Source: Sulfurospirillaceae bacterium (GTDB lineage: Bacteria > Campylobacterota > Campylobacteria > Campylobacterales > Sulfurospirillaceae). Taken from it: DNA of 62,240 nt. The stretch spans positions 1 through 62,240 of the forward strand of contig JAQUVE010000002.1 in NCBI GenBank assembly GCA_028693565.1, given 5' to 3'. The notes beneath the pieces are model-generated. The model ran no database searches. It saw only the letters and a program-made list of their open reading frames with translations, and was not told the DNA's origin. Positions 48,449-51,785 of this stretch are shown in pieces. Position 1 is the first letter of the stretch; every line of letters begins with the position of its first letter. The position numbers were made by a program, and so were the translations under genes.

Positions 48449-49162
48449 TTATTTTCCCAATATCTCTTTTAATTTTTTACCTTTTTTGATAAAAATTTTT
48501 CCATTTTTATCTATGACATCCGAATCAATGCCTACTTTTTTTTCTAACTCATCACTAATGCTCTGTTTTTCTTTTTTTGAAAAACCTTTTTGTTTCAAAT
48601 AACTCCGTAAATCTCTCCAATCACGATAAGATTCAAACATCGTTTCCACAACAGTATTTTCTTCCTCTTCTTCCAATACATCAGCATCTTCATAGAAAAA
48701 TGGTGAGGATGACGCATGTGAAGATTCGTCTTGACTATGAGATTTGGTTGCTGTGTGAATTTCAGGAGTTTGATGTGCAATTTGCCTATTTGCTAAGGAC
48801 AAAATAGTTTTTAACTGTTCATCTCTTTCTTTGTAAATTGCTTCAATTCTCTCTTTGGATTCAATTAATAAACGCTCTTTATCATTAATCAGCCGATCCT
48901 TATCCGCTTCAAGCTGTAAATTTTTGAGTTTAACTTCTTCTAATTGTGCTTTTAAAAGTTCTACATAAGCATGATCAATTCCTGCCTCCGCTTTATTGCG
49001 AACAGTATTATGCTCACGTGTCTGCCCTTTACTCATCAAAATGTATTTGACACCACCTTCCACAACACTTTGCAAACTTCCTCTGCGTAAACGGTTATAG
49101 ATAGCCTCTTTACTCACACCTAATAACTTAGCGGCTTCAAGCACAGTTAGCTTTTTATCCAT
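48449..49162 (-). CDS. Coiled-coil DNA-binding protein with MerR/excisionase-type helix-turn-helix
   Basis: The 237-residue protein starts with a helix-turn-helix (KKLTVLEAAKLLGVSKEAIYNRLRRGSLQS), followed by a coiled coil of about 70 residues (VELLKAQLEEVKLKNLQLEADKD). After an acidic linker comes a C-terminal basic domain (LRSYLKQKGFSKKEKQSISDELEKKVG, FIKKGKKLKEIL). It lies between rpsU and the UPF0323 gene, where C. jejuni has no gene. Function is unknown; the shape suggests a nucleoid-type or regulatory DNA-binding protein. Confidence 0.75.
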   Translation of the reverse strand: MDKKLTVLEAAKLLGVSKEAIYNRLRRGSLQSVVEGGVKYILMSKGQTREHNTVRNKAEAGIDHAYVELLKAQLEEVKLKNLQLEADKDRLINDKERLLIESKERIEAIYKERDEQLKTILSLANRQIAHQTPEIHTATKSHSQDESSHASSSPFFYEDADVLEEEEENTVVETMFESYRDWRDLRSYLKQKGFSKKEKQSISDELEKKVGIDSDVIDKNGKIFIKKGKKLKEILGK

Positions 49163-49342: not shown

Positions 49343-49555
49343 TTAGAGTCGTGATTCGTATCTTCTAAGCATATAAAGTCTTTTAAGTTGTTTTTTGCGA
49401 GCACTAATTTTATCTTTTTTACGTTTTTCAGTAGCCGTTTCATAGAAACGTCTTGCACGTACTTCAGTTACAACTAGATTTCTATCAACTTGTTTTTTGA
49501 ACTTTCTATAAGCTTCGTCAAATGAATCATTAGGGTGAACTTTAATCCCTGGCAT
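49343..49555 (-). CDS. rpsU: Ribosomal protein S21
   Basis: The 70-residue protein is a complete bS21 ([39 protein letters not shown] in outline) with the basic C-terminal tail [20 protein letters not shown]. It joins the 30S subunit and helps mRNA binding. A single-gene unit with its own terminator; in C. jejuni (Cj0370) it is also next to the UPF0323 block. It is divergent from the resolvase-like gene, and the 18-bp palindrome lies in their shared promoter region. Confidence 0.95.
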
Positions 49556-49654
49556 ACTCTTCCACCACCTTTCTGATTGATTTAGGTGAGGATTATATCG
49601 AATAACTTTTATATGTAAGCTTAAATAAAGTAATTATCCTTCCATGACGACAAA

Positions 49655-49697
49655 AAGTATACAGATATTGACTTTGTTCGTCAATATCTGTATACTT
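49655..49697. repeat. 18-bp perfect inverted repeat upstream of the resolvase-like gene
   Basis: AAGTATACAGATATTGAC (49655-49672) is repeated in exact inverted form at 49680-49697, with a seven-base spacer TTTGTTC. Each arm holds the palindrome GTATAC. No T-run follows, so it is not a standard terminator. It lies 32 bases before the ATG of the resolvase-like gene and about 100 bases from rpsU, in a divergent promoter region, as an operator or recombination-site relic would. Confidence 0.7.
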
Positions 49698-49729
49698 CCA
49701 TCATCGAAATGATAAAAAGGTGACATTTC

Positions 49730-50425
49730 ATGACAATCACACTTCTAAAAAATAAGATTGATGATCCTACAATCACTGTTCAACAAAAGCATATTCTTAA
49801 GTATGCACATCAACATAATCTTTTAATTGATACAACAGAGATAGAAAACTCTGACCCTTCTTTAGAACTTGAAGAGCGAAAAGAGTTTAAAGGTTTTTTA
49901 CGCTCTCTCGAAGAAAACGATAATATTATTATCTATGATCTTTTTACATTCTCAGAAAATGTGGAAGAGTTAGTAAAAGTTTTTGAATGTTTACTAACAC
50001 GTTCAATTACAGTTTATATTGCCAATACAAATACAATTCTTAACACAAATACCAAACCTATTGTCTTGTTAGAGCTTCTTTCTAAACAACAAGATATTAC
50101 AAACAATATGGATATTGAAAAAACACAAGGAAGACCAAAAGGTCGAATGTCCAAATCAAAATTTGATATTTATCGTCCCCAAGTGATAGAATTTCTTGAA
50201 AGAGGTATGTCGGTTAGTACTATTGCTAAAGAATTAGCAGTCAGTCGTACTTCCTTAAAAGATTATGTCAATTCTCGAGGATTAAAAGATTTGGTAAGAG
50301 CAAAACTCTCTCTTTTAAAATCCAATAAAAAAGAGATTATCATTAAAAAAGATCGTACTCCTAAAGAGTGCTCTCTAATAAAAGACCCTGACACAAAACC
50401 AGAAGGAATAACACATGAATTGTAA
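49730..50425 (+). CDS. Serine-recombinase-like DNA-binding protein lacking catalytic residues
   Basis: The 231-residue protein aligns by pattern with resolvases. It has TVQQKHILKYAHQHNLLID for 'QxxxLxxYAxxxG', then RKEFKGFLRSLEENDNIIIYDLFTFSEN for 'RPxxxxLLxxLxxGDxLVVxxLDRLSRN', and a C-terminal HTH (GRPKGRMSKSKFDIYRPQVIEFL, MSVSTIAKELAVSRTSLKDYV). The catalytic Ser of 'VST' and the Arg of 'RLSR' are both gone. It is probably a transcription factor derived from a recombinase. Its end overlaps the ccoG start by 11 bases, tying it to cbb3 oxidase assembly. Confidence 0.8.
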   Translation: MTITLLKNKIDDPTITVQQKHILKYAHQHNLLIDTTEIENSDPSLELEERKEFKGFLRSLEENDNIIIYDLFTFSENVEELVKVFECLLTRSITVYIANTNTILNTNTKPIVLLELLSKQQDITNNMDIEKTQGRPKGRMSKSKFDIYRPQVIEFLERGMSVSTIAKELAVSRTSLKDYVNSRGLKDLVRAKLSLLKSNKKEIIIKKDRTPKECSLIKDPDTKPEGITHEL

Positions 50426-51785
50426 TCTTAACACAACTCAGCAAACCACTTTCTATAGGATGAAGCGCTATATTGTATTTAGTATTATTACTTTTATTGC
50501 TATCATCTTGCCTTATATAACAGTTGAAGGTAAGCATTTCTTTTTGCTTAGCTTTGACAAAAAACAGTTACACCTTTTATTTACGACTTTTGACATGCAA
50601 GAACTTTACTTGATGCCATTTATATTGATCCTCTTCTTTTTAGGTATCTTTTTTATGACGACATTAGGAGGAAGAGTGTGGTGTGGATGGTCATGTCCTC
50701 AAACGATTTACCGCATTATTTATCGCGATTTGATTCAAACATATCTATTGAAAATTCGTAGAAGTATTCACAATAAACAAAAAGAGCCAGAAAACAATCA
50801 ATTTTTCAAAAAAATTGTTGGTTTCCTGTTATGGTCTGCACTTGCTTTCTTAGCTGCTTCAAACTTTATTTGGTATTTTGTTCCACCAGAAGATTTTTTT
50901 GTTTATCTTAAAGATCCTATAGAACATAGTGTTATGTATGGATTTATGATCGGTTTAGCATCATTTTTAATTTATGATATTACAACACTAAAAGAAGATT
51001 TTTGTGTTTATATATGTCCCTACGCAAGAGTTCAATCCGTTTTATTTGATGAAAATACGTTGCAAACCATTTATGATGAAAAAAGAGGTGGACAAATCTA
51101 TAATGATGCTGGTGTCAAAATGGGTAGTAAGCCTCCACTTGAAAGTGATGACTGCACAGGATGTGAAGCATGTGTTAGAGTTTGCCCTACCCATATTGAT
51201 ATTCGCAAAGGTATGCAACTTGAATGTATCAACTGTCTTGAATGTGCCGATGCGTGTACACCCGTTATGGCAAAACTTGGGAAAAAATCTCTTATTACAT
51301 GGACTAGCTCCAATGAGATTGAAAGAGGCGTACCAACGAAATATATAAGATTTCGTACAATTGCTTATGGTATTGCACTTTCTATAGCATTAATTGGTCT
51401 CTTTCTCATGGGAAGTACAAAAGAATATATGCTACTTAATATTAATCGTACAAGTCAGCTCTATACCATCCAAGATGATGGTAAAACTGTTGAAAATGTT
51501 TATACTTTCTTGTTTCAAAATACTGACTCAAAAGATCACATTTACTACTTTGATATTTCAAATAATGATATCAAGATTCAAAAACCAACTGAGCCTTTCC
51601 AGCTTAAAGCAGGGGCTAAAATGAAAAAAGTTGTTATTTTGTCATCATTGCCTAAAACTCTGAAAGAAGAGGGTGAAGACCTTCCTATTCTTATTAAAGC
51701 TTATGCTACCGATGATAAAGAAAAAATCTTTGTTACTCGTAAAACGATCTTTATCTTTCCTAAAAAAAGCGACTTCGCTAAATAA
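50415..51785 (+). CDS. ccoG: Cytochrome c oxidase accessory protein CcoG (RdxA/FixG)
   Basis: The 456-residue membrane protein has several helices and the typical GGRVWCGWSCPQTIYRII and KEDFCVYICPYARVQSVLFD. Two [4Fe-4S] clusters of the type CTGCEACVRVCPTHID and CINCLECADACTPVM are present, and a C-terminal immunoglobulin-like domain in the periplasm. CcoG helps copper reduction for cbb3 oxidase assembly. The ccoNOQP genes are not in this window. In C. jejuni, Cj0369c lies next to rpsU as here, but the resolvase-like gene is an addition I cannot confirm there. Confidence 0.93.
   Translation: MNCNLNTTQQTTFYRMKRYIVFSIITFIAIILPYITVEGKHFFLLSFDKKQLHLLFTTFDMQELYLMPFILILFFLGIFFMTTLGGRVWCGWSCPQTIYRIIYRDLIQTYLLKIRRSIHNKQKEPENNQFFKKIVGFLLWSALAFLAASNFIWYFVPPEDFFVYLKDPIEHSVMYGFMIGLASFLIYDITTLKEDFCVYICPYARVQSVLFDENTLQTIYDEKRGGQIYNDAGVKMGSKPPLESDDCTGCEACVRVCPTHIDIRKGMQLECINCLECADACTPVMAKLGKKSLITWTSSNEIERGVPTKYIRFRTIAYGIALSIALIGLFLMGSTKEYMLLNINRTSQLYTIQDDGKTVENVYTFLFQNTDSKDHIYYFDISNNDIKIQKPTEPFQLKAGAKMKKVVILSSLPKTLKEEGEDLPILIKAYATDDKEKIFVTRKTIFIFPKKSDFAK

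Follow-up and report, generated by a model that had tools for sequence, protein, structure and literature searches.

A serine-recombinase-like protein without catalytic residues as a probable local regulator of ccoG transcription in Campylobacterales

Background

In Campylobacterales, sequence comparison revealed a family of serine-recombinase-like proteins (SRL) that has lost the catalytic residues of its superfamily, is kept under purifying selection, is mostly encoded directly upstream of ccoG and is accompanied by a 39-bp putative operator, which lies over its own promoter and is lost together with SRL. We consider it quite probable that SRL acts as a non-recombining transcription factor which, as a dimer on this operator, autoregulates and most likely represses the SRL-ccoG operon, the operator having been co-opted at cyd and other respiratory promoters in other families. 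SRL would thus probably act locally on the transcription of ccoG, the product of which is described as a cupric reductase for cbb3 oxidase assembly (PMC8267372).

The gene under study is located on a contig of a Sulfurospirillaceae bacterium (JAQUVE010000002.1), of which a stretch of 62,240 nucleotides (the window) was analysed. An initial annotation of this DNA had described a catalytically dead serine recombinase, preceded by an 18-bp palindrome and coupled to ccoG, and had suggested that the protein binds this palindrome and controls cbb3 oxidase maturation and perhaps rpsU.

Methods

Alignment A1 comprised 70 of the 83 SRL loci; near-duplicates (L019, L023, L025, L077), incomplete or broken genes (L047, L055, L059) and six proteins of family f9 were left out. 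An intact serine recombinase paralog from the same genome (L002, MLIGYARVS...LDRLGR) served as yardstick for the catalytic columns. L047 and L055 (no upstream sequence or a gap) were excluded from the 73 ccoG-linked loci used for operator counts. The set of loci without SRL consisted of ccoG loci from genomes with no SRL match in the 298-genome search, excluding L244, which has no upstream sequence. The checks that are independent of the training of the operator model are these SRL-less loci, locus L251, the sites in trans and the Markov controls.

Results

SRL keeps the resolvase fold and has lost its catalytic residues

The SRL gene (49730..50425, + strand) encodes a protein of 231 amino acids and is preceded by a conserved leader GATAAAAAGGTGACATTT that includes the ribosome-binding site (49711..49728, +); the start at 49640 given earlier falls in intergenic DNA. 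Downstream lies ccoG (50415..51785, +), encoding a cupric reductase homologue for cbb3 oxidase assembly (TIGR02745 CcoG, 494.6 bits), which, as had been noted, overlaps SRL, the overlap being 11 nt, and upstream rpsU is divergently oriented (49343..49555, -). Two genes from SRL, the window contains a gene for an excisionase/MerR-like HTH protein (48449-49162, -; TIGR01764 at 23.5 bits, below cutoff), which is also present near rpsU in most f1 loci.

The SRL family belongs to the serine recombinase superfamily by descent. The window protein matches Pfam Resolvase with 31.7 bits (cutoff 23.3) and HTH_7 with 22.5 bits, slightly below the cutoff of 23.8, its HTH spanning residues 151-181; among the aligned SRLs, PF00239 was matched in 69/70 and HTH_7 in 42/70 at E 0.001. 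Its predicted structure (mean pLDDT 82.8) has helices at 144-157, 162-169 and 173-182, forming the C-terminal HTH, and gave Tn3 resolvase as top Foldseek match (E 3.3e-7), with the resolvases of Tn3 and gamma-delta both near the top of its structural matches and a VIA-align superposition on 2gm5_C of Z 14.0 (rmsd 2.6, 116 aligned). The resolvase fold and the HTH of the initial annotation are confirmed.

To judge from the alignment, SRL is dead as an enzyme throughout the aligned family. Read from the alignment rows, the nucleophile column holds Ser in none of the 70 SRLs, and the Arg-68 column (gamma-delta numbering) holds Arg in none, Thr, Val and others being found instead. At the Arg-71 position the window SRL has Glu, on which two alignments agree. 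The reported loss of Ser and key Arg is real in the window protein and, as far as Ser and Arg-68 are concerned, extends to all aligned relatives. The Arg-8 column is Lys or Arg in 69/70 (Lys in the window SRL).

Six genomes of family f9 (L097-L100, L102, L103) carry a distinct SRL-like protein, away from ccoG and with another upstream motif, near TAACATTWYGTATAA; L101 gave no SRL match. These f9 proteins have Asn in the Ser column (6/6) and Val in the Arg-68 column, retain Arg-71, and are missing most of the residues that are invariant in the recognition helix, as well as the operator.

SRL is linked to ccoG and is under purifying selection

A protein search found SRL in 44/60 relatives and in 145/298 Campylobacterales genomes, the weakest matches of the latter (~E 1e-9 to 1e-13) being f8/f9 proteins and not close SRLs; a search for ccoG in these 298 genomes was positive in 256. 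The coupling of the two genes seen in the window holds widely: among the loci read in Campylobacterales, ccoG lies directly downstream of SRL on the same strand in 74/83. The exceptions are six f9 and two f18 loci, where SRL is unlinked, and L077, which is cut by a contig end. One of the 74 linked loci, L082, has after SRL a gene matching ccoG at only 31%, while a 61% match is located elsewhere in that genome.

SRL is under purifying selection, with dN/dS values of 0.021-0.269 in 10/11 pairs and one pair not computable, and the SRL tree follows the families, which suits vertical inheritance. Several genomes (G054, G071, G097, G121, G039, G111, G195) have two or three near-identical ccoG copies; those in G195 are spaced 111,017 bases and may be an assembly artefact. 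At the second ccoG copies L210-L214, an operator of at least 18 bits was found at 0/5.

A 39-bp inverted repeat overlaps the SRL promoter

Upstream of SRL, the window contains a 39-bp putative operator TGACGACAAAAAGTATACAGATATTGACTTTGTTCGTCA (49645..49683, +; 28.2 bits), composed of two inverted half-sites, TGACGACAAAA on the left (49645..49655, +) and TGACGAACAAA on the right (49673..49683, - strand). The predicted SRL-ccoG promoter, TTGACT - 17 nt - TATACT (49668..49696, +), has its -35 box within this operator, and its hexamers are near consensus (10/12 matches). In the alignment of upstream regions TGACGAWAAAA, TTGACTTT, CGTCAA and the -10 box are conserved, giving as consensus the inverted repeat TGACGAWAAAA-N17-TTTTWTCGTCA laid over the -35 box; at SRL promoters generally, the -35 box and some of the spacer fall within the operator.

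In the 260 nt before the gene, 68/73 ccoG-linked SRL promoters have an operator scoring 18 bits or more with a half-site model that was trained on the very promoters it then counts, while 0/730 Markov-simulated upstream regions reached this score. A conserved, sequence-specific element upstream of the gene, as had been anticipated, thus exists in the form of this inverted repeat. Its span is 38-40 bp at 66 of the 68 loci and 50 bp, one helical turn more, at the other two; a single locus among the 68 has its top-scoring site as far as 206 nt from the start codon. L035, L059, L067, L072 and L074 are the five loci below 18 bits. Both arms are altered symmetrically (TGGCG...CGCCA) in L039, L050 and L076, and f17 has an additional 39-bp site close to the start codon of SRL; in G069 and G052 the two sites are 52 bp apart.

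Within the window, only the site at 49645-49683 reaches 12 bits or more, and in the 2.78-Mb genome the pattern occurs at one place, the SRL promoter, with up to three mismatches. The proposed search for further sites, for example at ccoN, therefore came out negative at this threshold. Nine non-SRL loci of the genus, read as second sites for TTGACTTNNNNCGTCAA, all apparently lie within coding sequence.

The operator is lost together with SRL

Where SRL is missing, the operator appears to be missing as well: it was found at 0/17 SRL-less ccoG loci, including L243, L249 and L250, where rpsU adjoins ccoG. In L059 (G024), stop codons break SRL into two parts, and no operator is left upstream of it. 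Conversely, L251, which lies outside the training set and has rpsU, SRL and ccoG in the order of the window, carries an operator of 18.7 bits. By these sequence comparisons, the operator is co-lost with SRL.

The 18-bp palindrome is exact and its outer arms are lineage-specific

The inverted repeat upstream of SRL, with exact 18-bp arms and a 7-nt spacer, is indeed present (49655..49697; arms 49655-49672 and 49680-49697). Of the perfect inverted repeats of this type it is the longest in the window, ahead of two with 14-bp arms, and no inverted repeat with arms of at least 14 bp occurred in 10 Markov-simulated windows; it is far beyond chance in the window. The 39-bp operator is centred 12 bp to the left of it and the two overlap. 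The palindrome also creates a mirror-image promoter-like site, TTGACG - 17 - TATACT (49656..49684, -), which faces rpsU.

Conservation of the palindrome held only in part. Its core, TTGAC-N7-GTCAA, lies inside the promoter and is conserved, whereas the outer arms vary: their complementarity over 62 loci was 5.06/13 in true pairing against 5.03 when permuted, the outer 13 positions pair perfectly in the window only, and the nearest relative (L012) matches at 4/13. The palindrome was accordingly rejected as the conserved site. Partly similar arms with the same centre occur in L038, L039 and L067. Template-switch repair can produce perfect repeats from imperfect ones, and the palindrome likely arose in this way.

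Control of rpsU by SRL found no support, since rpsU has a promoter-like site of its own nearer its start (49619-49592), is next to SRL only in f1, among the loci read, and in one f14 genome, and neighbours ccoG without SRL or operator in three genomes.

Operator-like sites in trans

In the two SRL-bearing genomes of f18, the operator is found at the SRL promoter (2/2), though SRL is unlinked to ccoG there, and also at the cytochrome bd operon (2/2), where by eye it overlaps the -35 box and spacer with TATAAT right after it, like at the SRL promoter. Among the 13 f17 genomes searched, operators were found at cyd promoters in three (g71; G213, G282, G302) and at an FAD oxidoreductase gene in four; an operator-like site precedes a gene for an uncharacterised membrane protein of ~65 amino acids and the M48 peptidase gene behind it in 6/13 (L196 2413-2451, L197 2278-2316, L198 2261-2299, L199 2397-2435, L207 2141-2179, L209 2255-2293). 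These other f17 sites have, by eye, a -10-like hexamer close after the operator and a weaker -35 box. In 30 other genomes, one of nine cyd loci (L218) scores above 18 bits, its site being placed differently relative to the -10 box, and a cydA search of the window's own genome gave no match; a general role at cyd is therefore disfavoured.

Next to these, an inverted repeat ACGTAAAAACAT...ATGTTTTTACGT that resembles the SRL half-site precedes a molybdopterin oxidoreductase gene in 6/20 genomes of genus g1 (e.g. L202 2226-2264, L203 2159-2197, L206 2234-2272). As no -10 box directly follows it in L202, it is possibly the site of another regulator.

Two nearly invariant cysteines

Cys87 (codon 49988..49990, +) and Cys214 in the C-terminal tail (codon 50369..50371, +) are present in 68/70 aligned SRLs. 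The two without them are the f18 pair, the genes of which are unlinked to ccoG and the proteins of which stop after the HTH. L251, ccoG-linked, keeps the first Cys and lacks Cys214, so the association of cysteines with linkage is not absolute. The near-invariance of both residues hints at redox or copper/metal sensing; given the description of CcoG as a cupric reductase, copper or thiol redox is a fair guess as signal, but no more.

Discussion

We propose that SRL derives from a serine recombinase that, with the loss of catalysis, turned into a dedicated transcription factor. An SRL dimer would bind the two inverted TGACGAWAAAA half-sites that lie across the -35 box and spacer of the SRL promoter, and this binding would autoregulate, most likely repress, the SRL-ccoG operon and as such set the supply of CcoG cupric reductase available for assembling cbb3 oxidase; in other families, this operator may have been recruited to cytochrome bd promoters and to a small number of further respiratory ones. 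We infer SRL itself as the operator binder, as well as repression and signalling through Cys87 and Cys214. The earlier reading as a regulator thus stands with respect to catalytic loss in relatives, a conserved site and coupling to ccoG, and falls with respect to the 18-bp palindrome as the site and to rpsU. A wider extension, in which recombinase-derived factors throughout the order sense thiol redox or copper via Cys87 and Cys214 and set terminal-oxidase biogenesis (mostly cbb3 via ccoG; in some lineages, genes for cytochrome bd and for other electron transfer), is put forward as a tentative possibility.

Several alternatives have to be weighed against repression by SRL. Activation, by SRL bound beside or over the -35 box and recruiting RNA polymerase when signalled, would be favoured by the second f17 site near the start of SRL, but we regard it as unlikely, because the operator runs across the -35 box into the spacer at SRL promoters, and likewise at the f18 cyd promoters, and because near-consensus hexamers at the window promoter need no activator. 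It is more doubtful still that a different regulator binds the operator while SRL merely shares an operon with ccoG. The operator is absent at 17/17 SRL-less ccoG loci and where SRL is broken, is present in f18 where SRL does not adjoin ccoG, and is single in its own genome at up to three mismatches.

A function of the 18-bp palindrome itself, be it as an operator, as a hairpin or as a bidirectional promoter for rpsU, might be read from its perfect arms, its face-to-face promoter-like sites and the partly similar arms of three other loci; the poor match in L012 and the pairing at permuted level over 62 loci make this very improbable, and the palindrome lies upstream of the predicted start site and is thus not transcribed from the SRL promoter. 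That SRL is still a recombinase, with an unorthodox catalysis on the palindrome, would agree with its resolvase fold and a palindromic site and is nevertheless hardly credible, with Ser and Arg-68 missing in 70/70 aligned SRLs and a single site in the genome at up to three mismatches. SRL as a non-recombining, most likely repressing regulator of its own operon is hence the reading we prefer.

Automatic annotation would name such genes 'recombinase', masking a likely oxidase regulator in many Campylobacterota, and the defined 39-bp operator makes its regulon directly testable. Self-repressing resolvases are already known; a chromosomal, vertically kept family with catalysis gone and the regulatory half alive, and with a tie to the assembly of respiratory enzymes, was absent from the literature searched. 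No title or abstract describing a recombinase-derived oxidase-assembly regulator came up, and the main text of a review of Campylobacterota respiratory regulation (PMC6682613) does not contain the words recombinase, resolvase, invertase or ccoG. Phage relatives of SRL were searched for and none was found, while plasmid relatives, among the 15 of 52 records listed, are 23-31% identical.

The nearest known parallel is the TnpR of Tn3/gamma-delta, which is described as binding res sites that hold promoters, thereby autoregulating and controlling tnpR and tnpA (PMC7157771). As far as that description goes, SRL resembles TnpR at res in its resolvase N-domain with HTH and in sites overlapping promoters, and inverted half-sites over the own promoter were found at 68/73 loci; unlike TnpR, SRL has neither catalytic residues nor a transposon, and its 39-bp site lies at a chromosomal metabolic operon. 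By eye, the stretch from the catalytic domain to the GRPKG motif also looks shorter in SRL than in active members. Among invertases of the Hin/Gin/Mpi type, SRL matches PHROG 125 'DNA invertase' and reaches 47.8 bits with the NCBIfam Mpi model, far below its cutoff of 272; unlike these enzymes it lacks the nucleophile, and a single operator copy in its own genome leaves no site pair for inversion. TldR proteins descended from dead TnpB nucleases. They are described as RNA-guided transcription factors of phages and, as far as described, are like SRL in being a mobile-element enzyme turned transcription factor, whereas they come from another enzyme family, and SRL is chromosomal and would rely on protein-DNA recognition only.
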